NCBI RefSeq assembly: GCF_003207895.1
Contig: NZ_NKUB01000017.1
Span: 1-57,554 of the forward strand
Source: Komagataeibacter swingsii
Lineage (GTDB): Bacteria; Pseudomonadota; Alphaproteobacteria; Acetobacterales; Acetobacteraceae
Length of the DNA stretch: 57,554 bases
Reading direction: 5' to 3'
The translations under genes and the position numbers were made by a program. Shown here piece by piece: positions 10,250 to 31,830 of this stretch. Numbering within the stretch: position 1 is the stretch's first letter; every line of letters starts with the position of its first letter. Under the pieces are notes generated by a model that saw nothing but the letters and a program-made list of their open reading frames with translations, did not search any database and was not told the DNA's origin.

Positions 10250-10423
10250 GGGCAACTTCCTTCCCTGCGGGCCATTTCCGGCATGATCACCAGTTGAGCG
10301 CAAAAACACGCTGACGCACCTTGATCCAGCGCAGGGCGACAGCCGACCAACTGTGATATGACCTGATAGTTTCCTGAGATGTCTTCATAAGATACGTGAA
10401 ATCATGACCAGCGGAGCGCGGTG

Positions 10424-10642
10424 ATGCCCTATTCCTCAATCGACGATCTGCCCGATCGGGTCCGCCTGCATCTACCCATTCATGCCCAGGAAATTTTCCG
10501 CGCGGCGTTCAACAATGCCTGGACCGAATATGGCGCCAAAGGCGAGGACCCGGAAGTCGCCGCCAATCGCGTCGCATGGGCGGCGGTGAAACGCAAATAT
10601 GTCAAGGATGGTGACGTCTGGGTCGCGCGCGACGATACCTGA
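10424..10642 (+). CDS. ChaB family protein
   Basis: 72 aa, the usual size. The sequence has the family's pattern: YSSIDDLPDRVRLHLPIHAQ, then EIFRAAFNNAWTEYG and AWAAVKRKYVK. The ATG at 10424 has GGAG seven bases upstream; a GTG three bases earlier is also in frame. ChaB was named as a regulator of the ChaA cation antiporter, but no chaA is near, and the role of stand-alone ChaB proteins is uncertain. Monocistronic here, divergent from the esterase-like gene. Confidence 0.87.
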   Translation: MPYSSIDDLPDRVRLHLPIHAQEIFRAAFNNAWTEYGAKGEDPEVAANRVAWAAVKRKYVKDGDVWVARDDT

Positions 10643-10744
10643 CAGGGACACACGTTGTCATTGACGGCATTGGGCATGGCACCCATACGGGATATGCGGC
10701 GATGAAATTGGAGCCGCCTGCAGCGATGGACGCCCGTTTGATAG

Positions 10745-10880
10745 GCCCTTGTTCAAAGCGTGCCATCCCGTCGAGAACTGCTTCTGCAAGCTCAAGGCGT
10801 TCAAGCGCATCGCCATGCGCTGCGACAGGGCAGATAAATCATTTGCGGCCATGATCGATCCCACGGCCGCAATCAGATAG
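10745..10880 (+). pseudogene. IS5-type transposase fragment, C-terminal end
   Basis: Read from 10752 to a TAG at 10878-10880, the frame gives CHPVENCFCKLKAFKRIAMR followed by CDRADKSFAAMI. This is the final segment of IS5-family transposases (usual form: IE..F.RLKD.RRVATRYDK). No matching N-terminal part precedes it on this strand. Leftover of an old insertion. Confidence 0.75.
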
Positions 10881-10944
10881 CGGGCATCCGGCAGGACTGG
10901 CAGCAGCATGGCAACAGGACGCCCCACATTATCACGGACGACAC

Positions 10945-11071
10945 ATGAAGCTTCGAATTCAGCGTGTGATCCGAACCCTCCGGGTGCCTTTTTCCACCAC
11001 AGGCTGTTATGGATCACATAAGTCATCCCGGCGATGACCTGACGGCCATCAACACGGCGTAAATCCCACAC
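10945..11071 (-). pseudogene. IS5-type transposase fragment, N-terminal part, opposite strand
   Basis: On the minus strand the frame reads RRVDGRQVIAGMTYVIHNSL and WWKKAPGGFGSHAEFE, matching the VDDRRVISGIIYV..GL.W.DAP..YGPH segment of IS5-family transposases. It faces the C-terminal fragment at 10745-10880 on the other strand, so the element was rearranged or two elements decayed here. Confidence 0.7.
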
Positions 11072-11080
11072 ATGGGTAAT

Positions 11081-11425
11081 GGTGGCTGTAGAATCCTCAA
11101 TGGTTCGTAGTTAAGCAACAGTAGTCTGTTCATTCCAGTCCCTTATGGAGGGGTGGAATGACATCGTGATCATGAAGTAACGAGATCTGACCCTAACATT
11201 CCAATCAGGGTTCTCACTTCATGTTCATGCACAGGCCATTCATTGCTTGCCATTTCTGGGCCGGCTTCTGTCTGGTTCTCGTGATTGTAAATATAATGTG
11301 ATGTATCAGCAAAGTGTCGCATTGTTGCAACATACCGGAATCAGAACGATGTGGCGGGCATTTTTTTCTCGATAAACATTGCGATCCGTTAATATCATAG
11401 AGCGATAGAAGAATCGCGGGGCATC
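11081..11425 (+). other. Intergenic leader of the TonB receptor gene
   Basis: 345 bases without a gene. AT-rich towards the 3' end. A weak ribosome site (GGGG four bases before the ATG) lies at 11418-11421. No -24/-12 promoter, no clear iron-box or riboswitch fold that I can defend. Confidence 0.4.
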
Positions 11426-14011
11426 ATGAACAGACGACTTCTTTCCTATATTATGACCATCTGCTCTTTTGTTTCTTTCGGAGCAGCAGCCGCCACACCC
11501 AATGAAAATTCTGGTACAGGGGAACAGAACTCAGGAAAAAACGGGACAGCCCGCGCACGTCGCGCAACGACAGCACAGGCTCAGACACGTGCTGCGCATA
11601 ACCTGAAGCAAGAGAATAATGGAGGGGTAAATAGTTCCGGAGTGGAAACAATAAATGTGTCAACCGGCACACATACAGTCAACCGGAAGGCGCGTGACAG
11701 TATAAGTCCCGTCTCGGTTGTCAGCGCGGCAACCCTGCGCCGGTCGGGCCAGATGAACCTGGCCGACGCCCTGACCCGTACCTATGCTTCGATCAATGTC
11801 AGTACGATGGGTGCCGATGCGGGCGCCTTGACATCCGCCATTCGCATGCGTGGTCTGAATCCGAACGAAGTGCTGGTTCTTGTTGATGGCAAGCGCCGCC
11901 ATACGACGGCCAACCTTTATGCTGATTCAGGCCCGGATTCAGGTTCGACCCCGGTTGACCTGAATATGATTCCAGCCAACGCCATTGATCATATCGAAGT
12001 GCTGGAAGACGGCGCGGCTGCCATGTATGGCTCGGACGCGATTGCCGGTGTGGTTAATATCATCACCAAGAAACAGGATCATGGCCTGAACCTGAGCGGC
12101 CAGACCGGCGCGAATGCCTATAACGGTGATGGCTGGGGCTACCAGCTCAATGCCGATGGCGGCATGAAGCTGGGGCAGGATGGTTTCCTGCATATCAGCG
12201 GCCAGATGTACCATACGGACCATTTCGTGGCCAACAATGCACGGGACCATCGTCTGCTTGGTTCCCAGCCTGCCGATGCCAGCAGTGCGACCTATACCGG
12301 CGTCAATGCTGGCAAGATTTCAACACGCTCCAACATGATTATGAGCACGCCGGAAGAAACGCGCGAAAACCTGGCGATTGAATGGGGCAAGCAGTTTACG
12401 CCCGGAATCAATTTCTACGGGCTGATTACCTACGCCCATCGTCATGCGGAAGCTTATGAAAACTATCGTACTCCGACTGTAGGTGGCTCCTGCGAGGCTT
12501 GCGCTGCCATTGCACCCTATGGTTTCTCACCACTGGAAACCATGGAAGAAAACGATTTTGCCGCCACATTGGGCCTGAAGGGTGACAACTTCATGGGCTT
12601 CAACTGGGATATCAGTTCCACCTATGGTGAAGATATCGACAAGATCGGCAACAAGAATACCCTTAACACGTCTTATGTTACTGATTACGGTTCCAGCCCC
12701 CGTAAGGCACGGGCTGAAAGCTACAGCATGGTGCAGTGGACCAACAACGCCGATTTCCGTCGTCGTTTCAAGATCGGGAACGTCGTGCCGATGACGCTCG
12801 CTTTCGGCGCTGAAGAACGGATGGAATCCTACAACATCACCGCCGGTAATCCCGTCTCGTATATGGGAGGCGGCACACAGGGCTATGCTGGCATCTCCCC
12901 GGGATCGGCTGGCACATGGTACCGTGATATCTGGGCGTGGTACCTGGATGGTGATTTCCGCCTGACCAAGAAGTGGGAACTGGATTTTGCCGGACGACTG
13001 GAGCATTATACCGACGTAGGTAATACGGAAAACGGCAAGATTTCAACACGTTACAACTTCACCAAGCGTATTGCCATCCGTGGTACCATCAGCACGGGCT
13101 TCCGTGCCCCGACACTGGCTGAATCACATTTCAGCGCCGTCAATGTTTCGCCCACGGGCGCCAGTGGCCTGCTGGCCGCTGATTCCTCGGCCGCCCAGGC
13201 CATTGGCGCAACCAAGCTGAAACCCGAACGTTCGACCAGCGTCAGCGGTGGCATCGTGCTGGAACCTGTCGATGGTTTCCACGTTGAAGCCGACGTCTAT
13301 CAGATCAATATGCGCGACCGCATAGTGCAGGACACGAACTTCGGTGGCTCTACCCCTTACGGTAATACGACGCAGGGCGCGGTAGCGGCGCAGGCTATTG
13401 CCCAACTGGCGTCCCTGCCAACCGGCTTTACCGGTTACAACGATGTCTATGCCGACTATTTCACGAATGGCGCCAGCACCCGTACACAGGGTGTGGACAT
13501 CAAGGCGGATTACATGTTCCGCTTCCATCAATACGGCAATCTGGCACTGTCGATGTCGATCGACCTCAACCGCACCCGGCTGCATCATAATGGCGCGGAC
13601 CTGAATCTTTCGGACATCGCGGCAATCACGACCGATTATCCCCGTAGCAAGATCATTCTCAACGCTTATTATACCTACAAGAACTGGGATTTTAATATTC
13701 GCCAGACCCGCTATGGCCAGACTAGCGACATGATGCAATATCAGGACTGGGGGCCTTCGGCCCTACAGTATTCCAACAACGCCCTGCAACAGTTCATCAA
13801 TACGCCACACTGGCTGACGGATATTGAAATTGGCGTTCGTTTCAAGAAGAACTGGCACATGGCGGTTGGCGCCAATAACGTATTCAATGTGCGTCCACGT
13901 ATGGTCCCGCAGGCGCTCAATGCACTGGGCGCAATGCCCTATGATGAGGATTCTGCCCAGATCCCCATGTATGGCGGGTATTATTACGGTCGTCTTAATG
14001 CTAACTTCTAA
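11426..14011 (+). CDS. TonB-dependent receptor
   Basis: 861 aa. Signal peptide at about residues 1-23 (SYIMTICSFVSFGAAAA), a low-complexity Ala/Thr/Gln-rich stretch to about residue 70, then a plug domain with SPVSVVSAATLRRSG, RMRGLNPNEVLVLVDGKRRH and EVLEDGAAAMYGSDAIAGV, all strong TonB-receptor motifs. The beta-barrel ends in YYYGRLNANF with a terminal Phe. It is followed by a strong terminator at 14031-14064 and then the amine oxidase operon. Placement suggests it may import the amine that the exported oxidase attacks, but the terminator means the two are not simply one transcript. Substrate unknown. Confidence 0.92.
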   Translation: MNRRLLSYIMTICSFVSFGAAAATPNENSGTGEQNSGKNGTARARRATTAQAQTRAAHNLKQENNGGVNSSGVETINVSTGTHTVNRKARDSISPVSVVSAATLRRSGQMNLADALTRTYASINVSTMGADAGALTSAIRMRGLNPNEVLVLVDGKRRHTTANLYADSGPDSGSTPVDLNMIPANAIDHIEVLEDGAAAMYGSDAIAGVVNIITKKQDHGLNLSGQTGANAYNGDGWGYQLNADGGMKLGQDGFLHISGQMYHTDHFVANNARDHRLLGSQPADASSATYTGVNAGKISTRSNMIMSTPEETRENLAIEWGKQFTPGINFYGLITYAHRHAEAYENYRTPTVGGSCEACAAIAPYGFSPLETMEENDFAATLGLKGDNFMGFNWDISSTYGEDIDKIGNKNTLNTSYVTDYGSSPRKARAESYSMVQWTNNADFRRRFKIGNVVPMTLAFGAEERMESYNITAGNPVSYMGGGTQGYAGISPGSAGTWYRDIWAWYLDGDFRLTKKWELDFAGRLEHYTDVGNTENGKISTRYNFTKRIAIRGTISTGFRAPTLAESHFSAVNVSPTGASGLLAADSSAAQAIGATKLKPERSTSVSGGIVLEPVDGFHVEADVYQINMRDRIVQDTNFGGSTPYGNTTQGAVAAQAIAQLASLPTGFTGYNDVYADYFTNGASTRTQGVDIKADYMFRFHQYGNLALSMSIDLNRTRLHHNGADLNLSDIAAITTDYPRSKIILNAYYTYKNWDFNIRQTRYGQTSDMMQYQDWGPSALQYSNNALQQFINTPHWLTDIEIGVRFKKNWHMAVGANNVFNVRPRMVPQALNALGAMPYDEDSAQIPMYGGYYYGRLNANF

Positions 14012-14030
14012 ACCTGTCTGACAGATGCGA

Positions 14031-14064
14031 TAAAATACCCATGACCGGCGTCATGGGTATTTTA
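14031..14064. terminator. Perfect 15-bp hairpin terminator after the TonB receptor
   Basis: TAAAATACCCATGAC (14031-14045) and its exact complement (14050-14064) are separated by CGGC. The arms begin and end in A/T runs, so the structure can act as a Rho-independent terminator in either direction. Confidence 0.8.
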
Positions 14065-14225
14065 CTTATGGCGGGCAGACTGCCCGGCTGTTTCCGGCGG
14101 CCAGCCTTCAATCCGCCTGTATCTGGAGGCATGATCTTCATATCCACCTGTACTGCTTTCCCGGTCGTATCTGTCCGGACCAGGCAGGCCGGATTCATCA
14201 TGGTTGTTATTATGGGAATTTTCTG

Positions 14226-15827
14226 GTGACAAACGCTCATCCGCGCAAGGCGCCCACACGCAGGCAACTTTTAACCCGTATTGGCACGATTGCCGGTAGT
14301 GCCGCCCTGTATCAGGCCATGACTTCCATGGGGCATGCGCAGGGTACGGATTTTACATCGCCCCCCGTCCTGTCGGGTGCAAAACGCGGCACACGTGTGC
14401 TGGTCCTGGGGGCAGGGCTTGCGGGCATGCTTGCCGCCTATGAACTGCGCAAGGCTGGCTACCATGTCCAGGTTCTGGAATTCCAGAACCGTGCCGGTGG
14501 CCGTAACATCAGCCTGCGCGGGGGCGATACCGTAACCGAACTGGGGGGTGCCATCCAGAAGGTCGGTTTCGCATCAGGCAATTACATCAATCCGGGTCCG
14601 TGGCGCATTCCTTATCACCATCAGGGCCTGCTGCATTATTGTCGTGAATTCGGGGTGGAACTGGAACCATTTGTGGAGCTGAACCACAATTCATGGCTCC
14701 ATTCTAGCAGGGCGTTTGACGGCAAGCCGGTCCGGTACCGGGAATTCGCCTCGGATTTTCATGGTTTCACGGCGGAACTGCTGGGCAAGGCGATCAACCA
14801 GCATAAGCTGGATGACATGGTTTCGGCAGATGAACACGATCATGTCATGACAGCCATGCGGCAGTGGGGCAGTCTTGATGCCAATCTGAATTACACCAAG
14901 GGTACCATCAGTTCCGAGACACGCGGCTATGCAAAGGCACTTGGCGGCGGCATAAACGGAGCGCCCACCCCGTCCGAGCCGTTTGCCCGCAAGGATATCA
15001 TGCGTTCCGGCCTGTGGACGTGGCTTGCCTTTCATGAGCGCCTGGACATGCAGACCACGATGTTCCAGCCCGTGGGCGGCATGGATATGATCGGCAAGGG
15101 CTTCAACCGGCAGGTAAAAGACCTGATTACCCTGAACTGCAAGGTTACATCCATCCAGCAGGACGACAAGGGCGTAAGGGTGACTTATAATGACATGGCC
15201 CACGCTGGTGCTGTGCGGGAGGCACAGGCCGATTACTGTATATGTACCATTCCGCTGCCTGTGCTCTCGCAGCTTGACGTGCAGGTCAGTGCACCGCTGA
15301 AGGCCGCGATCATGGCGGTGCCTTATGCGTCCTCGGTCAAGCTGGGGCTGGAGTTCAGGCGCCGCTTCTGGGAAGAAGACGACCAGATTTATGGTGGCAT
15401 CAGCTTTACCGACCAGCCGATCAGCCAGATTTCCTATCCCAGCCATGGTTATTTTTCGCGCGGTCCCGCAGTGCTGTTGGGGGGCTACATGTTTGGCCCG
15501 GCAGCGTACGATTTTGCAGGCATGTCCCCGCAGGAACGCATCGAACATGCCCTGGCGCAGGGAGAGGTTTTTCACAAACAGTACCGCAAGGAATTTTCCA
15601 ATGGCGTCAGTTTCGCATGGAGCCGTGTGCCGTGGACCATGGGCTGTTGTTCCATGTGGAGCGAACAGGCCCGCAAGACCCATTATAAGGCGCTGTGCAC
15701 CATGGATAACCGCGTCGTGCTGGCGGGTGAGCACGCATCTTATGTGGGCTGCTGGCAGGAAGGGGCCATCCTGTCCGCGCTGGATGCGGTAACCCAATTG
15801 CATAAACGGGCACAGGGAGCCAGCTGA
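14226..15827 (+). CDS. Tat-exported flavin amine oxidase/dehydrogenase
   Basis: 533 aa, starting at GTG (14226). The N-terminus holds a twin-arginine signal, TRRQLLTRIG followed by a hydrophobic stretch ending near GHAQG, so the folded FAD enzyme should act in the periplasm. FAD-binding parts: VLVLGAGLAGMLAAYELRKA (about residues 58-77), AGGRNISLRGG, and the C-terminal VVLAGEHASYVGCWQEGAI, as in monoamine and L-amino acid oxidases. Its stop overlaps the start of a c-type cytochrome gene by one base, and a Rid gene follows. In known cases (nicotine oxidoreductase type) such flavoenzymes pass electrons to a cytochrome c rather than O2; that is the likely mode here. Substrate unknown. Confidence 0.9.
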   Translation: MTNAHPRKAPTRRQLLTRIGTIAGSAALYQAMTSMGHAQGTDFTSPPVLSGAKRGTRVLVLGAGLAGMLAAYELRKAGYHVQVLEFQNRAGGRNISLRGGDTVTELGGAIQKVGFASGNYINPGPWRIPYHHQGLLHYCREFGVELEPFVELNHNSWLHSSRAFDGKPVRYREFASDFHGFTAELLGKAINQHKLDDMVSADEHDHVMTAMRQWGSLDANLNYTKGTISSETRGYAKALGGGINGAPTPSEPFARKDIMRSGLWTWLAFHERLDMQTTMFQPVGGMDMIGKGFNRQVKDLITLNCKVTSIQQDDKGVRVTYNDMAHAGAVREAQADYCICTIPLPVLSQLDVQVSAPLKAAIMAVPYASSVKLGLEFRRRFWEEDDQIYGGISFTDQPISQISYPSHGYFSRGPAVLLGGYMFGPAAYDFAGMSPQERIEHALAQGEVFHKQYRKEFSNGVSFAWSRVPWTMGCCSMWSEQARKTHYKALCTMDNRVVLAGEHASYVGCWQEGAILSALDAVTQLHKRAQGAS

Positions 15828-19010: not shown

Positions 19011-20402
19011 CTATAAGAAGCCTGATGAACCGACAGCACGTTGCCGTCGTTGAACCGAGTTGGGAAAGCCTATGGATTCCCGATATTTTGCGACAGTGCG
19101 ACGTGCTATATCTATTCCATCTTTACGTAAACGTGTCGTAATTATATCGTCGGAAAGAGGCGACGCAGGATTCTCATTTGTTATCATCTGACGAATTTTG
19201 ACCTGTATGGCGGCATTGCTGTGCATTTCTCCATTTTCTCCCGATAATGCAGCAACAAAAAAGAACTTGAGGGGGAGTGTGCCGCGTGTCGTGGCTATAT
19301 ATTTATTGGCAGATACCCTGCTTACCGTACTCTCGTGCACGCCCAGGCTTTCAGCGACCATGCGTAAGGTCAGAGGGACCAGACCAGAAGGTCCCTGTGT
19401 CAGGAATTTTTCCTGTCGTCGTATAATCTCTGTCGCGACGCGCAGTATTGTTATACTGCGTTGCTGAAGGGAACGTATCAACCAGTTCGCATTTGTCAGA
19501 TGTTCTGATAAAAAAGCATGCTCCTTTGGCTGCGCGCGTAACGAAAGGCGTGTAATCAGTGCGCTATTAAGTACGACGTTTGGTGTGGTAACGGGATTTA
19601 GTTCCAATATCCATTCAGAAGCAGGTGACTGTTCCAGCAGGATATCTGGTATAACCGCGGTCAGGCATTCATCTGTCGTTTCCATGCCAGGTTTGGGATT
19701 GAGTGAACGCAGATCAGAAATCATGCCATGCATGTCTTCGAGATCCACTTCACATAACTGGCATAGTCCTTTCAGGTCATATCGGGCGAGCATATCGAGA
19801 TGATCGAGCAGCTTGGCCATTGCAGGATCCATACGATTACGTTCTTCTAACTGGACCCTCAGGCATTCCTGCAAGGAAAGGGCGAACAGGCCCGCAGGCT
19901 CGAAACGCATCATCCGTTGACGTACGGTATCGACATGCCCGACAGGAACGTGCAGCCATGCAGCTATTTTCTCGGGCAAGATTGAAAGACGACCAGCCCC
20001 GTCGAGTCCGCTGATCAGGTGGGCGCCAATTTCGCGTTCCTCAAGGGAGCAGCCGGACAGGATCAACTGTTCGAATAACCGCTCACGCAAAGGTGGGACT
20101 GTACCTGCAATGCGGGATACGCCGTCATCCAACCCGCTGTCGGATGTCCAGTTTTGGCTGCCCGGACCGATATTGCTATGGGGCAGTGAAGGTATCCTGT
20201 CATCAGTCTTTGATTGAGGGGGCGGTATCCCCGCATCTGAATCATCCATCGGTTCCAGGACCGGATTTTTTTCAACTTCATTTGCCAGGAATTCCTGCAG
20301 TTCCGTATTGGAAAATTGCAGGATCTGGAGAGACTGGCGCATGCGCGCATTTATAAACAGCCCCTGCTTCTGGCCTATTTCCTGACGGTAACCGGATCCC
20401 AT
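19011..20402 (-). CDS. rpoN: RNA polymerase sigma-54 factor
   Basis: 463 aa, normal length. Region I begins KQGLFINARMRQSLQILQFS followed by NTELQEFLANEVEKNPVLE. The core-binding domain is in the middle, the helix-turn-helix around TLRMVAESLGVHESTVSR, and the RpoN box near the C-terminus reads ARRTVAKYRE. RpoN recognises -24/-12 promoters such as those before modA, nifB, nifH, iscA and fixA here. The gene starts three bases after the modC stop, with GGGAG eight bases upstream, so it is the last gene of a modA-modB-modC-rpoN unit. As that unit has its own -24/-12 promoter, rpoN is probably partly self-activated. Another housekeeping rpoN may exist elsewhere. Confidence 0.96.
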   Translation of the reverse strand: MGSGYRQEIGQKQGLFINARMRQSLQILQFSNTELQEFLANEVEKNPVLEPMDDSDAGIPPPQSKTDDRIPSLPHSNIGPGSQNWTSDSGLDDGVSRIAGTVPPLRERLFEQLILSGCSLEEREIGAHLISGLDGAGRLSILPEKIAAWLHVPVGHVDTVRQRMMRFEPAGLFALSLQECLRVQLEERNRMDPAMAKLLDHLDMLARYDLKGLCQLCEVDLEDMHGMISDLRSLNPKPGMETTDECLTAVIPDILLEQSPASEWILELNPVTTPNVVLNSALITRLSLRAQPKEHAFLSEHLTNANWLIRSLQQRSITILRVATEIIRRQEKFLTQGPSGLVPLTLRMVAESLGVHESTVSRVSANKYIATTRGTLPLKFFFVAALSGENGEMHSNAAIQVKIRQMITNENPASPLSDDIITTRLRKDGIDIARRTVAKYRESIGFPNSVQRRQRAVGSSGFL

Positions 20403-21131: not shown

Positions 21132-21814
21132 GAAGTATGTCTCCGTTTACGATTTTGCAATGAAGACAAAAGAAGGATTGTCAGGAAAGAAAACATGACC
21201 ATGCCGCCTGCAATCATGTTGGCGTCATGCCATCGGGCACTTTCGACATAATCGTATAAAGCAACCGACAGCACGCGTGTCTGGCCCGGAATGTCCCCCC
21301 CGATCATGAGGACTATTCCAAATTCTCCAATCGTATGGGCAAAACTCAATACAATGGCAGTGACAACGCCACGCCATGCCATCGGAATGGCAATACGATA
21401 AAATGTGCGCCATGGCGATGCACCTAACACGGCGGCACTTTCCACCGGATGGCGCCCCATGGCGTGGAACGCGTTCTGGATGGGCTGCACGGCAAAGGGC
21501 AGCGCATAAAGCAGGGAGCCAATGACCAGACCATGAAAGCTGAATGCGAGCGTGCGGGCGCCCCACAGGCGCGCAATCCATCCCCCAGGCCCTGTCGGGC
21601 CAAAGGCGAGGAGCAGGTAGTATCCGAGTACACTGGGGGGAAGCACAAGCGGAAGGGAAATAACCGCGTTGACCATGGACTTCCACCATCGGTGCGGGAA
21701 TGCCAGCCACCATGCAAGGGGTAATGCTATTGTCACAAGCATACCTGTCGTAACCACTGCCAGTTCCAGCGTCAGGATGGTGGCTTCTATGACATCGGTG
21801 GGGATTCCCTTCAT
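21128..21814 (-). CDS. modB: Molybdate ABC transporter permease
   Basis: 228 aa with five to six hydrophobic segments. SLPLVLPPSVLGYYLLLAFG and the EAA-like loop ESAAVLGASPWRTFYRIAIP identify the ModB family. RVLSVALYDYVESARWHDAN near the C-terminus is also typical. It overlaps modA by four bases and modC by four bases, so the three subunits are translationally coupled. Confidence 0.95.
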   Translation of the reverse strand: MKGIPTDVIEATILTLELAVVTTGMLVTIALPLAWWLAFPHRWWKSMVNAVISLPLVLPPSVLGYYLLLAFGPTGPGGWIARLWGARTLAFSFHGLVIGSLLYALPFAVQPIQNAFHAMGRHPVESAAVLGASPWRTFYRIAIPMAWRGVVTAIVLSFAHTIGEFGIVLMIGGDIPGQTRVLSVALYDYVESARWHDANMIAGGMVMFSFLTILLLSSLQNRKRRHTS

Positions 21815-22587
21815 CGTGCGGCTTCCTGTTCACCATTGGGGGTCAGATAACCGGCGCGCCTGATCATGTCACGGGCTTGAGGTCCATGCAGGAAAGTCAT
21901 GAATTGGCGTGCGTCTATATTCTCTCCCGCTCTCGATAACAGCACCGCGTCCTGACGCAGCGGTGAATACAGACTTTCTGGTATAACCGTGTATTTTCCT
22001 TCCTTAAGCCTGCTCACCTGGGCCAGCGCAACGAATCCCAGTTCCGCATTGCCGCTCTGGATCAGTTCAAGGGCCTGGCTTACGGATTGCGCCACAACCA
22101 GCCGGGGGCGTAACTGGTCATAAAGGTTCCATGCCTTCAATGTTTCAATCGCAGCCGCACCATATGGTGCCGTAGCGGGATTGCAGAGCGCAAGATGGGC
22201 AAATTGCCCGTTCCTCAGCATTTGCTCGTCAGGGGGGATGCCGGTTGTTGGGCGCCATAGTACCAACTGGCCAATGGCATAGGTAAAACGCGAAGATGCT
22301 ATGGCCAGACCGCTGGAAACAAGTTCTTCCGGTCGTTGCGTATCCGCGCTGAGAAAAATATCAAATGGTGCGCCCTCCCTGACCTGTGTAGCCAGTTGAC
22401 CGCTTGATCCTGAACTGATTGTCACGGACAGGTCGGTTCTTTGCATGAATTCATCTGCCAGTTGCTGCGCCGTCTGTATAAAATTTGCGGCTACAGCCAG
22501 ACGGAGCGGGTCTGCACTGGCCCGATTGCTTGAAATCAGTGCACCTGTAATGGCCAAAGCGAGAATGATCAGACGGTGAATACGCAT
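21811..22587 (-). CDS. modA: Periplasmic molybdate-binding protein
   Basis: 258 aa from the ATG at 22585-22587, with a strong AAGGAGGG six bases upstream. Signal peptide up to about NRASADP (residue 26). Mature protein shows LRLAVAANFIQTAQQLADEF, TISSGSSGQLATQV, and GAPFDIFLSAD, all characteristic of ModA. First gene of modABC-rpoN; a consensus sigma-54 promoter lies about 105 bases upstream. Captures molybdate for the nitrogenase cofactor. Confidence 0.95.
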   Translation of the reverse strand: MRIHRLIILALAITGALISSNRASADPLRLAVAANFIQTAQQLADEFMQRTDLSVTISSGSSGQLATQVREGAPFDIFLSADTQRPEELVSSGLAIASSRFTYAIGQLVLWRPTTGIPPDEQMLRNGQFAHLALCNPATAPYGAAAIETLKAWNLYDQLRPRLVVAQSVSQALELIQSGNAELGFVALAQVSRLKEGKYTVIPESLYSPLRQDAVLLSRAGENIDARQFMTFLHGPQARDMIRRAGYLTPNGEQEAAR

Positions 22588-22690
22588 CGTAACCCTCCTT
22601 ATTCCAACAGGTGAACATGGCCATATAAATACCCTGGAATTGCCGCGCTTTCTGATACCCGCTGACAGCGGAGTATATGAAAGAGAGGGA

Positions 22691-22706
22691 AGCAAGAAAC
22701 GTGCCA
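22691..22706 (-). promoter_or_regulatory. Sigma-54 promoter of modABC-rpoN
   Basis: On the minus strand: TGGCACGTTTCTTGCT, an exact match to TGGCACG-N4-TTGC. Transcription would start near 22680 and leave about 90 bases of leader before modA. I searched 22707-23489 by eye for TGT-N10-ACA and found none, so the activator is uncertain; NifA is the best guess. Confidence 0.75.
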
Positions 22707-23489
22707 TGTGATAAGGCAGTTAAGGAATGGCATATAAATACGACGTGATATTCAGTACCGTGCAAGTACTGTCATGTTCCATGGCGGCATGAGAATTGCG
22801 TATGTTCCCTTGTCAGTCCAGTGAATGGAACAACAGTGATGCCCCACCAACATGGTGTATTTCAGTCATATTGTCGCTATCCTGCATGTAGTGATCATCC
22901 CCATGATATTAAAAAAGATGGTTTGCGGGCATGCTGCCGCATTATGGCATGGCATATGCAGGGTCCTGGATTTATTCAGGGACACATTCAGGCAGCGTGG
23001 AGACCACGCGAGCAGGGTGTCTATGCTGTATAGGCTGATCGGGCTACAACCGGATATTCCGTCCGGTAACCGGCTGGTAATACAGAGTGCCCATATACGG
23101 GAATGGCTGCGACCAGGTGCCGCGATATTGTAATAGTTCCATCACAAGCTGAGCCTGCTGGATGGAATGGCAGGCACGATATCAGGCGCGCTGTTGATAG
23201 ACCGGGCGGGACATCAAGGAGGCGGCGAAACGGAACACTCCGGGAGACCATTATGGCATATACAGGAAATCTCTGCATCAGTACGCGTGCATATCTATTT
23301 CTGCTTGAATATAGACGATTTATAAATGCCCGGAATAAAAGAAAAATAATCTTGCTATCGAATTTTCCCAATAAAATATATGACAGATCGAAAATGAAAG
23401 GTGGCAACTGCCGCGTCGGGATGCCATCATTGGCGTATCCCTAAAGCGTATATTATGGGTACAATTGAACAGGCGGGGAGGCACGCGAT
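22707..23489. other. Long divergent region between modA and nifA
   Basis: 783 bases without a supported gene. It carries the modA promoter at its left edge. No -24/-12 element or NifA site is readable in front of nifA, suggesting that nifA is expressed from another promoter type. GC falls between about 23280 and 23400. Short frames here lack ribosome sites and motifs. Confidence 0.5.
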
Positions 23490-25247: not shown

Positions 25248-25263
25248 TGTCGCTGTCGGCACA
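25248..25263. promoter_or_regulatory. NifA upstream activator site before nifB
   Basis: TGT-CGCTGTCGGC-ACA, an exact TGT-N10-ACA, 22 bases after the nifA stop and 71 bases before the -24 element. Between site and promoter lies a doubled GCGCATATGAC motif (25271-25292 region) of unknown role. Confidence 0.8.
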
Positions 25264-25334: not shown

Positions 25335-25350
25335 TGGCATGCTTCTTGCG
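25335..25350 (+). promoter_or_regulatory. Sigma-54 promoter of the nifB unit
   Basis: TGGCATGCTTCTTGCG: TGGCATG, four bases, TTGC. One base off the TGGCACG consensus. About 37 bases upstream of the nifB start. Confidence 0.85.
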
Positions 25351-25387
25351 CCGGATCTGATAGCGAAAGTCAGTCCGGAGAATGGCA

Positions 25388-26863
25388 ATGGCACAGCTGA
25401 TAAATTTGGGTACGCTTACCCCGACCGCCGCGCAGGACATGCGTGTCGCGCTGACAGGCGATGGAGGATGTTCTTCTTCCAGTTGCGGAAGTTCCGATGG
25501 TCCTTCCGATCTTCCTCCCGAAATATGGGAAAAGGTCAAGGATCATCCATGTTATTCAGAGGAAGCCCATCATTATTTTGCTCGGATGCATGTTGCTGTC
25601 GCTCCCGCATGCAATATCCAGTGCAATTATTGTAATCGTAAATATGATTGCGCGAATGAAAGTCGCCCCGGTGTGGTATCGGAAAAGCTGACCCCGGTGC
25701 AGGCGCGGCGTAAGGTCATTACCGTTGCCAACGAGGTACCCCAACTTTCCGTTCTTGGAATCGCCGGGCCAGGCGACGCCTGTTACGACTGGAACAAGAC
25801 ACGCGAAACATTCGCGCAGGTCTCGCAGGACATTCCCGACATAAAATTGTGCCTTTCGACCAATGGTCTCGCTCTTCCCGATCATGTCGATGAAATCGCC
25901 CGAATGAATATCGACCATGTCACGATCACCATCAATATGGTCGATCCGGAAATCGGTACGAAGATCTATCCATGGATATTCTACAGGAATAAACGCTGGA
26001 CCGGACTGGATGCATCCCGAATCCTGCATGAACGTCAGATGCTGGGACTTGATATGCTGACGGCGCGAGGCATCCTGACTAAAATCAACTCCGTCATGAT
26101 TCCCGGCATAAATGACGAACACCTGATTGAGGTAAATAAGGTTGTCAAGGCCAGGGGAGCTTTCCTGCATAACATCATGCCGCTTATATCCGATCCCGCG
26201 CATGGTACGCATTTCGGGCTGACGGGACAGCGCGGCCCGCGCGCTCATGAACTCAAGGCGCTTCAGGATCAGTTGTCTGATGGAACAAAACTCATGCGCC
26301 ACTGCCGTCAGTGCCGGGCTGATGCCGTAGGCCTGCTGGGCGAGGACCGTGGACAGGAGTTCACAATGGATCAACTGGCCGACGAAGTTTCTTACGACCC
26401 GTCACGCCGGGAAACCTACCGTGAAGTTGTGGCGCAGGAACGGGGCGAACATATGAAGCAGCGCAGGGCCGCCGATGCGGTGCTGGCCGAAATTGAGACT
26501 GAAGCGCCCGTCCTGGTCGCGGTTGCGACCAAAGGTGGCGGCCGGATCAACCAGCATTTCGGGCATGCGCGCGAGTTCCAGGTCTATGAGGTTTCCGCTT
26601 CGGGCATCCAGTTCATCGGCCATCGCAAAGTCGAGAATTATTGTGAAGGGGGATGGGGCGAGGACGCAACCCTGAACAGTACGATTGAAGCCCTGGAAGG
26701 GATTCATATGGTGTTATGCGCCAAGGTCGGTGACTGCCCGCGTGAAAGCATGGGTGCTGCCGGGATCGAGATCAGTCAGGCGTATGCCCATGACTGGATC
26801 GAGGCAGGTATTACCGGATGGTATTCCGCAACTTTTGGAATGGAAATCCGCCAGACGGCGTGA
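25388..26863 (+). CDS. nifB: NifB, FeMo-co precursor (NifB-co) synthase
   Basis: About 491 aa. Two ATGs are in frame, 25382 and 25388; GGAG is one base from the first and seven from the second, so 25388 is used. Radical-SAM Cys motif in AVAPACNIQCNYCNRKYDC, extra Cys ligands in LMRHCRQCRADAVGLLGED, and a C-terminal NifX-like domain with GGGRINQHFGHAREFQVYEV. The enzyme joins two 4Fe-4S clusters with a carbide from S-adenosylmethionine to form the core of the Fe-Mo cofactor. First gene of a unit with fdxN, an LRV Fe-S protein, nifZ, nifT and a SIR2-like gene. Confidence 0.97.
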   Translation: MAQLINLGTLTPTAAQDMRVALTGDGGCSSSSCGSSDGPSDLPPEIWEKVKDHPCYSEEAHHYFARMHVAVAPACNIQCNYCNRKYDCANESRPGVVSEKLTPVQARRKVITVANEVPQLSVLGIAGPGDACYDWNKTRETFAQVSQDIPDIKLCLSTNGLALPDHVDEIARMNIDHVTITINMVDPEIGTKIYPWIFYRNKRWTGLDASRILHERQMLGLDMLTARGILTKINSVMIPGINDEHLIEVNKVVKARGAFLHNIMPLISDPAHGTHFGLTGQRGPRAHELKALQDQLSDGTKLMRHCRQCRADAVGLLGEDRGQEFTMDQLADEVSYDPSRRETYREVVAQERGEHMKQRRAADAVLAEIETEAPVLVAVATKGGGRINQHFGHAREFQVYEVSASGIQFIGHRKVENYCEGGWGEDATLNSTIEALEGIHMVLCAKVGDCPRESMGAAGIEISQAYAHDWIEAGITGWYSATFGMEIRQTA

Positions 26864-26902: not shown

Positions 26903-27097
26903 ATGGCTTACAAAATCATTACATCGCAGTGCACGGTATGCGGGGCATGCGAATTCGAATGCCCGAACGCCGCCATCCGGCTCAAGAATGATCTGTACGT
27001 AATTGATCCCAAGAAGTGTACGGAATGCGAGGGGCACTTTGATGCGCCACAATGCGCTGAAGTCTGCCCCGTTCCCAATACCTGCGTTCCGGCATAA
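26903..27097 (+). CDS. fdxN: FdxN-type 2[4Fe-4S] ferredoxin
   Basis: 64 aa. Two cluster-binding groups: [12 protein letters not shown] near the start, and [18 protein letters not shown] in the second half with the enlarged spacing typical of nif-linked ferredoxins. Directly downstream of nifB (39 bases). FdxN-type ferredoxins supply electrons to NifB or nitrogenase. Confidence 0.94.
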
Positions 27098-27116
27098 ACG
27101 GCTTCGGGGCGGTTGC

Positions 27117-27935
27117 ATGAGCCAGAAAAAGCCAGAGCGCGACGCGCCCGCCCCGCCTGCCGGCTTGATACATGAAGCGGTTGACTGGCAGGGGCAACAG
27201 GTGCGGTGTCGGGATTGCCGGCACGAACCGATGCATCGGGACGGCAGATGCCAGCGCGGACGTAGTTGCGTACGGGATCGTCGCGCTCGCCGGGTGGATA
27301 GGTTTTTTACCCAGAACCCGTCCATGGCGGACGAATATCTCGATCACCCATACGATGAAGTCCGTGCGATCGCTGTGCGATATTGTACCATATTCCGCTT
27401 GCCGCCGCTGCTGGCTGACCCAGAACCGGAGGTCAGGGTGGGGGCCGTGCTCCGGTTGCCAATCCGGCGTATCCTTCCCCTGGCGGCTGATCCTGACCGG
27501 CGCGTACGGGTTTCCGTGGCCAGTCGGCTTGAAGGAAATGAACTGCTCCGGCTACTGGCCGATCCGGATGCGCTGGTCCGCCTTATGGTGATCAGGCGGC
27601 TTGAGCCGGACATGCTGGTGCTGGCGGTCCAGGATCAGGATGCGGATATACGGCGCTGGGTCGCGCGCCGTATTGCGCCTGCGTATCTGTACTTGATGTT
27701 GTCGGATACAGAACCGACGGTACGACAGATTTTGGCTACGCGGTTGCCAGTGGCGTTATTGCCCGTCATGGCGACGGACGATGACGTGCGTGTCCGGTTT
27801 ACGGCCATTGAGCGATTGCCGGTAGCCATGTTGCATGCCCTGGCCGACGATGACGAACCGCTTGTCCGGGAACTGATCACGCGTCGTCTGGCAGAAGATG
27901 TTCGAAAGGAGAACTCCGATGGGACTGGGACGTGA
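27117..27935 (+). CDS. LRV (leucine-rich variant repeat) 4Fe-4S protein
   Basis: 272 aa from the ATG at 27117; an earlier in-frame ATG overlaps fdxN. The N-terminus has a Cys group of the form C-X2-C-X10-C-X5-C (CRDCRHEPMHRDGRC, then QRGRSC), expected to hold a 4Fe-4S cluster. The rest (about 75-260) is a series of roughly 24-residue repeats of the DPDALVRLMVIRRL type, which is the LRV superhelix first described for a nif-region protein of Azotobacter vinelandii. Its job is unknown; a scaffold or redox adaptor for NifB-stage assembly is inference. Overlaps nifZ by 17 bases. Confidence 0.9.
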   Translation: MSQKKPERDAPAPPAGLIHEAVDWQGQQVRCRDCRHEPMHRDGRCQRGRSCVRDRRARRVDRFFTQNPSMADEYLDHPYDEVRAIAVRYCTIFRLPPLLADPEPEVRVGAVLRLPIRRILPLAADPDRRVRVSVASRLEGNELLRLLADPDALVRLMVIRRLEPDMLVLAVQDQDADIRRWVARRIAPAYLYLMLSDTEPTVRQILATRLPVALLPVMATDDDVRVRFTAIERLPVAMLHALADDDEPLVRELITRRLAEDVRKENSDGTGT

Positions 27936-28197
27936 GGAAGAAGTCGAAATCCGCAGGCAGCCTGTTTTCCTGCCTGGTACCAAAGTACGGGCAACGCGAT
28001 ATGTAAAAAATGACGGCACTTTTGCGGGACGGGAAATTGGTGAAATGCTCGTTCATAAGGGAGATGTCGGCTATGTCCGTGATATTGGTGTCTTTTTGCA
28101 GCGCTATTACATCTATGCCGTGGAATTTGTCGAACGTGGTACTGTTGTCGGCATGCGTGCACGCGAACTCAATCTGGAAGCAGAGGCATTAAAATGA
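27919..28197 (+). CDS. nifZ: NifZ
   Basis: 92 aa. ATG at 27919 has GGAG seven bases upstream within the end of the LRV gene. Family pattern PVFLPGTKVRATRYVKNDGT, GDVGYVRDIGVFLQRYYIY and VEFVERGTVVGMRARELN. NifZ helps mature the P-cluster of NifDK in Azotobacter. Overlaps nifT by four bases (ATGA). Confidence 0.95.
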   Translation: MGLGREEEVEIRRQPVFLPGTKVRATRYVKNDGTFAGREIGEMLVHKGDVGYVRDIGVFLQRYYIYAVEFVERGTVVGMRARELNLEAEALK

Positions 28198-28409
28198 AGA
28201 TCATGCTGCGACGGGACGCACGCGGCCTGTCGGTTTACGTGCCGCGCAAGGATCTGGAAGAGCCGGTTATTGCCCAGCAGCATGATGCGCTGTGGGGTGG
28301 ATGGGTAAAGCTCAAGAATGGGTGGGTACTTGAGTTACCTGTTATGGACGCCCAGACCCAACTGCCCATTACGGTCAATGCTCGTAAGCTTGAAGGAGAG
28401 GGTTCATGA
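28194..28409 (+). CDS. nifT: NifT (FixU)
   Basis: 71 aa, usual size. MKIMLRRDARGLSVYVPRKD followed by LEEPV and WGGWVKLKNGWVLELP is the NifT signature. Role unclear in all species studied; dispensable in several. Its stop overlaps the ATG of the SIR2-like gene by four bases. Confidence 0.95.
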   Translation: MKIMLRRDARGLSVYVPRKDLEEPVIAQQHDALWGGWVKLKNGWVLELPVMDAQTQLPITVNARKLEGEGS

Positions 28410-29248
28410 CGGATGTTATGAATGAAATAAGCGCAGGATTACATGCGCGGCGTCTGATTCCCTATCTGGGTACTGGCGTAAGTGCCCTTGCGCAGAATAC
28501 GGTTGTTCCCGCAAGCCCGACCGAACTCGCCGCTTTCTTGGGGCGACAGGTTGCCCTGCCCAAGCGGGCCCGCGGCAATCCATGGGCAGCGGCACAATAT
28601 ATTGAAAGCCACCGCCATCGTTCCACCCTGACTGCGTTGATGGATCGTGCATATGCCGAGCCTGTAAAACCTGTAGAACTGCATGAAATATTGGCGGCCT
28701 ATGCACCACCGATGATTATTGACACCTGGTATGATGGTGCGATGCGGGCTGCGCTGGAAACCTGCCTGGCTGCTGGCGAATGGGGAGAAATACAGGGGAT
28801 TCCACGTGCAGGAATTGGTGAATTCCAGTGGTATCGCGCCTATGGGGCCAGTGGAAAGGAAGTGCCGGTTGAAAATGCGGCGCAGTGGAGAACGATTCTG
28901 TACAAACCTCATGGATCGGTTACGCCAGCCCGCAATTACCTGGTTGCTGATTCTGATTATGTCGAGATCCTGACGGAGATTGATATCCAGACGCCCATTC
29001 CGGAAATGATCAGGTCCCGGCGGTCAGAATGTGGTTTTTTGTTTCTGGGATGTCGGTTTGACGACCAGATGTTGCGGATTTACGCACGACAGATCATGAA
29101 ACGGTCAGCAGGACCATATTATGCTGTCATGGAACCTGAAATCATGACGCGCAATGAAATGGCATTTCTTAAACAAAATAATATCCGTCCGGTCTGCATA
29201 TCGCTACAGGACGTTACGGACTTTATTAAGGAATCTGCCAATAAATAA
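28406..29248 (+). CDS. SIR2-like protein in the nifB operon, active-site Asn replaced
   Basis: 280 aa. ATGA overlap with nifT makes it the last gene of the nifB unit; GGAG lies upstream in nifT. SIR2-like features in order: LIPYLGTGVSAL (residues 18-28, GAG-like NAD loop), IIDTWYDGAMRAAL (104-117), YKPHGSV (166-172, His169 at the catalytic position), and GFLFLGCRFDDQMLRIYARQ, the closing motif. In SIR2_2-type NADases the second motif is usually TTNYD with the catalytic Asn; here it is TWYD (Trp108, codon TGG). NAD hydrolysis is therefore doubtful. Could be a nucleotide-binding regulator or assembly factor; no partner effector of a phage-defence system is next to it. Confidence 0.85.
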   Translation: MTDVMNEISAGLHARRLIPYLGTGVSALAQNTVVPASPTELAAFLGRQVALPKRARGNPWAAAQYIESHRHRSTLTALMDRAYAEPVKPVELHEILAAYAPPMIIDTWYDGAMRAALETCLAAGEWGEIQGIPRAGIGEFQWYRAYGASGKEVPVENAAQWRTILYKPHGSVTPARNYLVADSDYVEILTEIDIQTPIPEMIRSRRSECGFLFLGCRFDDQMLRIYARQIMKRSAGPYYAVMEPEIMTRNEMAFLKQNNIRPVCISLQDVTDFIKESANK

Positions 29249-29529
29249 CGCAATCAGTAATTTGAAAATTATTTTTGACCCATTATATTAAAAACTTGTC
29301 AGTTTCTATGAAAGCAACATAGATTATTCAATGCTACGATCGTATTGCTTTGTTTTCATGTTGCCTGCTCGGGTGCATACCGGTTGGCGACAGGTTTGGC
29401 ATGTACACATCAATACATGGTGGGTAGAAGTAATAAATATAAATCATATTAAAATATATATAGACGTAGGCAGAAAGGCAGAATTATATGAACATTAGTT
29501 AAATAACCGAAATGATATGGAGGGCGGTC
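29249..29529 (+). other. AT-rich leader before the TonB receptor
   Basis: 281 bases, clearly lower in GC than the genes on either side. No TGT-N10-ACA or -24/-12 pair found by eye, so the receptor does not look NifA-controlled. No convincing Rho-independent terminator for the nifB unit is visible. Confidence 0.45.
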
Positions 29530-31830
29530 ATGGTCCGGATGAATACGGGTATGGTATGGATGTTTTCTGCCTGCCTGGGCGCATTATTCATTCCTTCCGC
29601 ATATGCACAGGGCAAGAAGGCCCAGTCATCCGCCGCGAGGGGTGCTGGTGGCAAGGATAATGCAGTAACGTCCGTCAATGCGGAAGAAATGACAGTTATC
29701 GGCCACCATCGGATGGTGGCGGGCGCGGCGGCCAACTATAACAAGAAGACCGCGAACCTTGGCCCGCTGGGCACGCGCCGCACGCTTGATGCGCCCATGT
29801 CGATCATGACCGTGCCACATGACGTGATCGTCAACCAGCAGGCGCGCAACATTAATGACCTGATGCAGTACCTGCCGTCGGTCCAGTTGGAAACCCGCGC
29901 CGACCCCGGCACCAGCCGCCCGCAGTCACGCGGGTTCGAGGCGGACGTGATTTCCAACAGCCGCATTGATGGCCTGAATGCGTTTACCGTGACCCCCTAT
30001 GCGGCCGAGCAGTTCGACAATGTGCAGGTGCTCAACGGCCTTGCCGGTGCGCTGTATGGCCCCCAGAACCCGGCCGGCACGTTTGAATATGGCCTGAAGC
30101 GCCCGACGGATGAGCGCATCAACCGCCTTGTGGTCGGCGTGGATTCCATCGGCACGCTCATGGAAAATGTCGATTCATCGGGCCGCCTTGGCAAGAACGG
30201 ATGGTTTGGCTATCGCATCAACCTGCTGCACGGTGACGGCACGACCTATGTGCAGGACAGCTGGGTGCGACGTAATATGGTCAGTGCTGATTTCGACATC
30301 CATTTCGACCGCGATACGGTTCTTGAACTCGATGCCAGCCATTACACGTATGATGAACGCGGCATGCCCGCGGGTGTCAATCTCAACAACATGCAGTTGC
30401 CCGAAGCCCCCGACCTGAGCAGGCCGCACATGGGGCAGGATTATGCGGGCTACAACTCTGAGAACAACGTCTTCCTCGCCAAGCTCAAGCATCGGATCAA
30501 TGATGACTGGAGCTTCGTGATCGGGGGCCTATATCAGGATTCAGGCCGTCAGGTGTTTGAATCCGCCGATACGCTGATCAACAACCAGGGTGGTTACAAA
30601 CAGACCATTTCCGCCGCCACTACGGTCAATGATTTCAAGGTTGGCAGCAACATGGCCTATATCAACGGCCATGTGCATACCGGGTTCATCAGGCATGATC
30701 TTGTGATTGGCACCAACGGCTACATGGCGGGGGGCTACAATCCCCTGAGCGGGCAGAGCTATACCGCCGTTGCCTCGGCATCGCTGTATGATCCGGCCGT
30801 GGCGCCCAATGGTCCGCAGCCCTATTACAGGGGGAATTACGAATCCCAGTACGTGCGTTACCAGTCCATGATCCTGGGGGACACGGTGCATTTCAATCGC
30901 CATTGGTCGGCCATGGGCACGCTGGCGTGGAGCTGGCTGGATCAGGACAGTACCGGGACGGTGACGGAAGAAGCTGCGACAAAGCAGACGGTGAACGGCT
31001 ATGTTGTCTCGACCACCCACCTGGGCAAGGGAAAGACCACGAACGCGCGGGCCGATGCCGCCTTCAGCCCCATGGCCAGCCTGATCTACAAACCGGCTGA
31101 CAACCAGACGGCCTACTTCACCTATGGCCGTTCCCTGCAGGCCGGCACGTCGGTTACGGCTGGTGCGGTGAACGACAACCAGTTCACGTCGCCCGTGCGA
31201 AGTGAGGAGTTTGAAGTCGGTTACAAATACATGTTCCGCAACATCCAGTTCAATGTGGCCGGTTTCCGTGCAACACGCAGCTATGCCTATATCGACCCGA
31301 CATCGCACGTTTACGGTAATTTCGGTACGCAGCGGAATTATGGCGTGGAATTCCAGGCCATGGGCCATATCACGCCGTGTCTTGCCGTTATCGGCGGCAT
31401 GACATGGATCGATGCGGAAGTGCTGAATACAGGCAATGTCAGGACATCCAACAAGGAAGCCGTGGGCGTCGCGCCACTGCAGGCCAATGTGCTGTTGGAT
31501 TATCGTATTCCGTTTTCGCAGGGGTTCGCGCTGAATGGCCTGGCGGTCAACGCCAACGTCCATTACACGGGCCGCCGTGCGGCGGATGTGTACAATTCGA
31601 CCTATGCTGGGTCCTATGTCACGCTGGACATGGGCGCTCGCTTTCCGTTCCGTGCGGCCCGGCATCCGTGGATGGCCCGTTTCGGCGTGACCAATGTTGC
31701 GAACGAACGGTACTGGTCATCCGTCTATAACGGCACCGCCGCGGGCACGGCTGTAACGGCGGCGGGCACCAGTGCAGCCTATGCCGGCCTGCCGCGCGCC
31801 TATCACTTCACGCTTGAGGCCGACTTCTGA
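29530..31830 (+). CDS. TonB-dependent receptor inside the nif island
   Basis: 766 aa from the ATG at 29530, with GGAGG seven bases upstream; a weaker ATG lies at 29512. Signal peptide to about SAYAQG (residue 28). Plug domain: DAPMSIMTVPHDVIVNQQAR, NDLMQYLPSVQLE, RPQSRGFEADVISNSRIDG and VLNGLAGALYGPQNPAGTF, typical of siderophore-type receptors. Barrel ends in YHFTLEADF with terminal Phe. It has its own AT-rich leader and a strong terminator (31938), so it is a separate unit between nifB and nifH operons. Iron or metal-chelate (possibly molybdenum) uptake for nitrogenase is an inference from location. Confidence 0.92.
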   Translation: MVRMNTGMVWMFSACLGALFIPSAYAQGKKAQSSAARGAGGKDNAVTSVNAEEMTVIGHHRMVAGAAANYNKKTANLGPLGTRRTLDAPMSIMTVPHDVIVNQQARNINDLMQYLPSVQLETRADPGTSRPQSRGFEADVISNSRIDGLNAFTVTPYAAEQFDNVQVLNGLAGALYGPQNPAGTFEYGLKRPTDERINRLVVGVDSIGTLMENVDSSGRLGKNGWFGYRINLLHGDGTTYVQDSWVRRNMVSADFDIHFDRDTVLELDASHYTYDERGMPAGVNLNNMQLPEAPDLSRPHMGQDYAGYNSENNVFLAKLKHRINDDWSFVIGGLYQDSGRQVFESADTLINNQGGYKQTISAATTVNDFKVGSNMAYINGHVHTGFIRHDLVIGTNGYMAGGYNPLSGQSYTAVASASLYDPAVAPNGPQPYYRGNYESQYVRYQSMILGDTVHFNRHWSAMGTLAWSWLDQDSTGTVTEEAATKQTVNGYVVSTTHLGKGKTTNARADAAFSPMASLIYKPADNQTAYFTYGRSLQAGTSVTAGAVNDNQFTSPVRSEEFEVGYKYMFRNIQFNVAGFRATRSYAYIDPTSHVYGNFGTQRNYGVEFQAMGHITPCLAVIGGMTWIDAEVLNTGNVRTSNKEAVGVAPLQANVLLDYRIPFSQGFALNGLAVNANVHYTGRRAADVYNSTYAGSYVTLDMGARFPFRAARHPWMARFGVTNVANERYWSSVYNGTAAGTAVTAAGTSAAYAGLPRAYHFTLEADF

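Follow-up and report, generated by a model that had tools for sequence, protein, structure and literature searches.

What is a SIR2-like gene doing at the end of a nitrogen-fixation operon, and can its product still work as an enzyme? The question is raised by a stretch of 57,554 nucleotides from Komagataeibacter swingsii (contig NZ_NKUB01000017.1, positions 1 to 57,554; the whole stretch is called the window here), in which the initial annotation had placed a SIR2-like protein of 280 amino acids that starts inside the nifT stop codon. In the present study, the gene was found to be a real open reading frame (28406-29248, plus strand) and the described start was confirmed: the ATG (28406-28408) overlaps the nifT TGA (28407-28409) as ATGA, and GGAG lies immediately 5' of the ATG. 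The gene is the sixth of a tight run that consists of nifB, fdxN, a gene for an LRV/FeS4 protein, nifZ, nifT and the SIR2-like gene. The family is a nif-linked one of predicted SIR2 fold without an intact catalytic pair, and most likely it acts as a non-catalytic accessory. The pair is not considered intact because the asparagine site is invariably tryptophan in the clade of the window protein (the Trp clade) and the histidine site holds leucine or methionine in a sister clade.

Motifs, catalytic residues and fold

The 280-amino-acid protein matched the Pfam family SIR2_2 (PF13289) with 77.8 bits against a gathering cut-off of 24.5, and a SIR2 fold was predicted for it. The closest solved folds among the 50 entries listed by VIA-align were those of defence NADases, enzymes that cleave nicotinamide adenine dinucleotide (NAD). 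No second domain was found by Pfam, and neither NCBIfam nor PHROGs gave a match; PADLOC gave only weak matches to ThsA (E 5.7e-5) and LmuA. A protein search of the draft genome of the window had one match only, and the nearest relatives fetched were those of Komagataeibacter melaceti (78%) and Gluconacetobacter diazotrophicus (70%). The gene and its motifs are placed as follows.

28406..29248, plus strand: nif-linked SIR2-like protein of 280 amino acids (open reading frame, Pfam, alignment and predicted fold)
28469..28483, plus strand: glycine loop GTGVS, residues 22-26, by alignment (LGTGVSA is 21-27)
28721..28735, plus strand: DTWYD motif, residues 106-110, in place of T-x-N-x-D (Trp108 codon 28727-28729)
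28904..28915, plus strand: KPHG motif, residues 167-170 (His169 codon 28910-28912; YKPHGS is 166-171)
29048..29065, plus strand: GCRFDD, residues 215-220, the closing SIR2 motif (LFLGCRFDDQ is 212-221)

In a profile of 37 sequences (the window protein and 36 relatives), Trp108 aligned with Asn112 and His169 with His152 of ThsA (6lhx). The ThsA substitutions N112A and H152A each abolish both cleavage and binding of NAD, with the caution of the authors that H152A also disturbs oligomerisation (PMC7272460; here and below, statements cited by PMC accession refer to passages of the articles concerned). Residues were counted over 98 aligned sequences, namely the window and 97 loci (of 98 loci, the Bradyrhizobium plasmid copy L161 failed to align); these rows include close species and do not amount to 98 independent cases. 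All 98 have Trp108, and the motif contains no asparagine that could take the catalytic place, so that the replacement noted in the initial annotation for one protein is conserved across diazotrophs. The first alignment (80 relatives and the window) had given tryptophan in 81/81 and His169 in 80/81, with a possible bias towards tryptophan since one of the six search peptides was MIIDTWYD. This was countered by adding whole-genome profile matches and five plasmid loci to the alignment. The 13 Trp-clade loci that these profile searches contributed (L083-L087 and L097-L104) all carried tryptophan, and several of them had a residue other than histidine at the histidine site.

His169 was found in 88 of the 98 sequences; the rest had Tyr (3), Leu (3), or Asn, Trp, Ser and Ile (1 each), and Rhizobium etli CFN 42 is one of those with Tyr. 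The glycine loop, His169 and closing GCRFDD that had been described are present in the window protein, with the refinement that position 23 of the loop is Pro in 84/98 and Thr, as in the window protein, in 4. Cys216 is Met in one sequence. Altogether, 19 of the 36 positions listed were invariant across the 98 sequences. Sirtuin deacylases carry a zinc module of four cysteines. The present protein has cysteine only at 120, 209, 216 and 264 and was not found to contain such a module, and the asparagine of the sirtuin catalytic pair of Asn and His is tryptophan. Of the features of ThsA/DSR2-type NADases, it has the SIR2 fold and the histidine (His169) and lacks the asparagine (Trp108). By this alignment, the NADase signature is lost, in agreement with the earlier proposal.

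Linkage to nif genes and the sister clade

Relatives were encoded by 108 of 115 pattern matches, and the best 80 of the 108 were kept for neighbourhood analysis. In all 80, nifT stood upstream on the same strand, and within the fetched stretches nifB was found in 79, fdxN in 78 and nifZ in 77. The gap between nifT and the SIR2-like gene, whose start was taken as the nearest start codon, was at most 60 nucleotides in 67/80, and the largest was 403. A defence context or partner of the ThsA/DSR2 type was not found at these nifT-adjacent loci.

In the class sample, the Trp-clade SIR2 profile matched in 6 of 289 genomes and NifT in 8, and all six were within those eight (Fisher p = 4e-11, relatedness ignored). 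In the Pseudomonadota sample, the family was present in 17 of 398 genomes (12 strong Trp-clade, 5 sister-clade), all of them within the 43 that have nifB over the cut-off (p = 1e-18, likewise with relatedness ignored). The two samples overlap and both hold the genome of the window; the phylum sample gives small classes extra weight, and one class, judged by handles, contributes 78 genomes. In that class, the sister clade occurred in three genomes, identical to the three with nifB over the cut-off. Orthologues were thus not concentrated in defence islands without nif genes, as all matching genomes of the two samples have nifT or nifB. NifT was found in 40 of the 43 nifB genomes, and its high-scoring type (E below 1e-25) in 14, of which 12 carry the Trp clade. 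By score, NifT fell into two types, and among the 43 genomes the Trp-clade SIR2 gene was seen only alongside the high-scoring one.

On plasmids, there were 75 matching records: 71 from Rhizobium, Sinorhizobium, Mesorhizobium and Bradyrhizobium together, two from Paraburkholderia and one each from Methylococcus and Microvirga. Five plasmid loci were inspected, and the SIR2-like gene lay inside a nif cluster in four; the fifth, L161, was a weak match by nifT. In the nif clusters of Methylococcus and Paraburkholderia (L158, L159), a gene for a DegT/DnrJ aminotransferase and one for a 2Fe-2S protein separate or flank nifT and the SIR2-like gene. No relative was found in phage records and viral contigs at the sensitivity used. 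Partial extra SIR2-like profile matches (L110-L114) were seen in three genomes of the same class (G322, G468 and G519), one of them with two stops, and these copies are probably decaying duplicates.

The controls came from a class sample of 152 genomes, for which 36 SIR2_2 matches were listed; six were without a locus, and 30 loci remained. Four of these 30 were nif-clade loci, the window included, and all had tryptophan; the other 26 were non-nif. Four of these 26 (L135, L137, L146 and L148) were unreadable at the motif, the profile match starting later, and T-x-N with the asparagine kept was found in 22/22 readable ones. HG lay within the matched stretch in 19 of the 22, L138, L147 and L149 being without it.

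The sister clade, which comprises the five weaker profile matches of the phylum sample (L105-L109; longer loci L115-L119), resembles the Trp clade in being SIR2-like, in occurring in nifB genomes near nif genes, and in sharing the motifs D-x-[WN]-x-D and SD[SA]D[YF]V. It differs in that its own motif is D-[IC]-N-R-D, with the asparagine kept and followed by arginine, in that the histidine site is Leu or Met (5/5), and in that the gene does not directly follow nifT. From the motif readings of both clades, therefore, the Trp clade is without the asparagine and the sister clade is without the histidine. The first Thr of T-x-N in the 22 readable controls corresponds to Asp in 96/98 Trp-clade and 5/5 sister sequences. 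A tree was built on 58 sequences, comprising 32 of the nif clade, five of the sister clade and 21 controls. In it, the nif and sister clades split from the controls with a Shimodaira-Hasegawa-like approximate likelihood ratio test (SH-aLRT) value of 99; long branches meet in this tree, L153 was left out, and only this split was used. The sister clade had been considered as a non-nif group on short loci without nifT, and this was rejected as the longer loci hold nif genes: they lie within about 10 kb in four of five, and the fifth has nifB about 20 kb off on the same contig. Its oxygen-gene neighbours were read in three loci, L115, L118 and L119. In L118, the neighbourhood (9468-15521) includes genes for an Fe superoxide dismutase, a rhodanese-ankyrin protein, NifQ, a flavodiiron-like protein and an ArsC-like protein; hemerythrin adjoins the sister-clade gene in L115 (9162-9563) and L119 (9135-9512). 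These oxygen-related neighbours give a hint of an oxygen-linked role.

The nifB operon of the window

The other genes of the run and the elements before it are given below.

25248..25263, plus strand: site TGT-N10-ACA before nifB, like a NifA upstream activator sequence (by position)
25335..25350, plus strand: sigma-54 -24/-12-like element TGGCATG-N4-TTGCG, 31 bases before the nifB ATG (by position)
25382..26863, plus strand: nifB, first gene of the run (TIGR01290 over cut-off)
26903..27097, plus strand: fdxN-type ferredoxin, named by sequence and gene order, without family search
27117..27935, plus strand: LRV/FeS4 leucine-rich-repeat-variant protein (Pfam LRV_FeS and LRV on the longer frame 27003-27935; the start at 27117 is our choice)
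27898..28197, plus strand: nifZ (Pfam NifZ)
28194..28409, plus strand: nifT, also fixU (PF06988, TIGR02934)

With consensus sequences taken from general knowledge, the NifA-type site occurred 11 times in the window against 10.6 expected, and the sigma-54-like motif at two mismatches 15 times against 13.6, no excess over chance. Because neither motif is more frequent than chance, the proposed nifB promoter rests on position, which is suitable for both elements; published data on the matching operons of Mesorhizobium loti (PMC3538637) and Rhodobacter capsulatus (PMC6925177), given below, speak for it. The sole mismatch-free sigma-54 pattern match lies at 22691-22706 on the minus strand, at the 5' end of a solute-binding-protein frame (21811-22707) that is perhaps ModA; it suggests a sigma-54-driven uptake operon with the start codon further inside the frame. 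The sigma-54 gene rpoN is also near the nif cluster (19011-20402, minus strand). Between the SIR2-like gene and nifH, there is a gene for a TonB-dependent receptor (29512-31830), and the nif cluster of Zymomonas mobilis likewise has TonB-dependent transporters (PMC8594446).

Function, alternatives and comparison with known systems

Our interpretation, to which we give a probability of about 0.6, is that the window protein is a nif-dedicated SIR2-fold protein which has lost NAD cleavage and acts as a non-catalytic accessory of the co-made set of NifB, FdxN, LRV/FeS protein, NifZ and NifT. The gene is distributed like an accessory gene: across diazotrophs it is located in nif clusters, and in the samples it occurs only in genomes with nif genes. 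We infer that the Trp-clade protein neither binds NAD productively nor cleaves it: going by the alignment, the side chain of Trp108 would fill the space of the nicotinamide-ribose of NAD, and productive binding would be prevented. The remaining pocket (glycine loop, DxDY, GCRF loop and many invariant charged residues) may bind a nucleotide or a partner protein. With less confidence, this contact could adjust the maturation or protection of nitrogenase under some conditions, for instance when free-living cells meet oxygen, redox or energy stress, and not the basic reaction.

Some facts weigh against this interpretation. The strongest is that an msi351 insertion mutant of M. loti formed fully effective nodules on Lotus (PMC3538637), which counts against an essential nif role of this synteny-matched gene. 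In addition, 26 of the 43 nifB genomes of the phylum sample had no family match. Because of both, nitrogen fixation in itself does not depend on the SIR2-like protein. Finally, the retention of His169 in most sequences is not needed by a pure pseudoenzyme and leaves room for some other chemistry. A wider proposal is put forward only tentatively, as possible rather than probable: the two clades would form one nif-exclusive pseudoenzyme family that lost opposite catalytic halves (Asn to Trp; His to Leu or Met), and an NAD-destroying defence fold would have been domesticated a single time, to sense a ligand or bind a partner in the maturation of nitrogenase or its protection from oxygen.

The fold may also have been turned to another reaction, with Trp108, His169 (in most members), Asp182, Asp184, Glu187 and Cys216 as a new active site for a nucleotide or metal-cluster intermediate. 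The many invariant polar residues and the iron-sulfur, ferredoxin and NifZ neighbours favour such a reaction, but His169 is replaced in 10/98 and Cys216 in one; we consider such an active site unlikely. It is improbable that the gene is a nearly functionless remnant, retained mostly for the sake of translational coupling or the layout of the operon. The effective msi351 mutant, the partial extra copies and the poorly matching Bradyrhizobium plasmid copy would agree with a remnant. Against it are the invariant positions, a ratio of nonsynonymous to synonymous substitution (dN/dS) of about 0.08 (two relatives were compared and gave about 0.075 and 0.079, at saturated dS), and the fact that the protein is made in R. 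capsulatus (PMC6925177) and Z. mobilis (PMC8600466).

It is highly improbable that the protein is an active sirtuin deacylase that removes acetyl groups from lysines of NifA or nitrogenase, the role suggested for ZMO1821 in Zymomonas. The SIR2_2 membership speaks for it, as do the upregulation of ZMO1821 and the acetylation of NifA and nitrogenase under nitrogen fixation in Z. mobilis (PMC8600466). The deacetylase guess is doubtful because the key catalytic residue is tryptophan, and the published assignment is probably wrong. Hardly any credence is given to the view that the protein is an NADase effector of phage defence which happens to lie in the nif operon: the closest solved folds and the weak ThsA model match are of that kind, but the catalytic asparagine is lost, a second domain was not found by Pfam, phylum-sample matches lie in nifB genomes only, nifT is linked in all kept relatives, and phage records, viral contigs and PHROGs gave no relative.

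The SIR2-like gene has published counterparts. A nif-linked SIR2-like gene is mentioned in PMC3538637, PMC6925177, PMC8594446, PMC8600466 and PMC9412634, and the main text of PMC7860042 has no mention of SIR2. In M. loti, the operon nifB-fdxN-nifZ-fixU-msi351 is listed with a NifA-regulated promoter, and in the same study loss of fixU was mild and deletion of nifZ and fixU severe (PMC3538637). In R. capsulatus, Rcc03262, which adjoins NifT, has values listed in the wild type and "NF" in the nifA1-nifA2 deletion (PMC6925177). Msi351, Rcc03262, ZMO1821 and the Rhodovulum gene are taken as orthologues by gene order and label, and sequence relatives were fetched from Mesorhizobium (e.g. L160), a Zymomonas metagenome-assembled genome and Rhodovulum. 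The initial annotation had regarded a SIR2 pseudoenzyme with a nif role as new. This stands in part: the gene and its nif link were already in print, once as a likely deacetylase, and the new elements are the tryptophan signature, the nif restriction in the samples and the reciprocal loss in two clades, for which no report was found in the passages of open-licence PMC literature covered.

No gene name was met for this gene, which occurs in 12/14 sampled genomes with high-scoring nifT, and it is an obvious candidate to test in minimal nif sets. The deacetylase guess motivated an acetylome study (PMC8600466), and the consistent tryptophan at the catalytic asparagine redirects experiments. The family may be a natural case of an NAD-destroying fold turned to a metabolic role.

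Compared with known systems, the family resembles the published nif-cluster genes in being SIR2- or sirtuin-like and, as far as M. loti, R. capsulatus and Rhodovulum (PMC9412634) are concerned, in its place next to nifT/fixU, and the genes of M. loti, R. capsulatus and Z. mobilis are NifA-dependent or nif-induced. It differs from their descriptions, which in the passages concerned are of SIR2- or sirtuin-like proteins, one a likely deacetylase, and leave the missing asparagine and a nif-only family unmentioned. FAM118B, a human SIR2-like protein, is eukaryotic and a weak sequence match (E 0.14). The NADases ThsA, DSR2 and KomC have their own Asn and His and cleave NAD, whereas in the present family the Asn is Trp, the His varies, the protein has a single domain and the context is nif.
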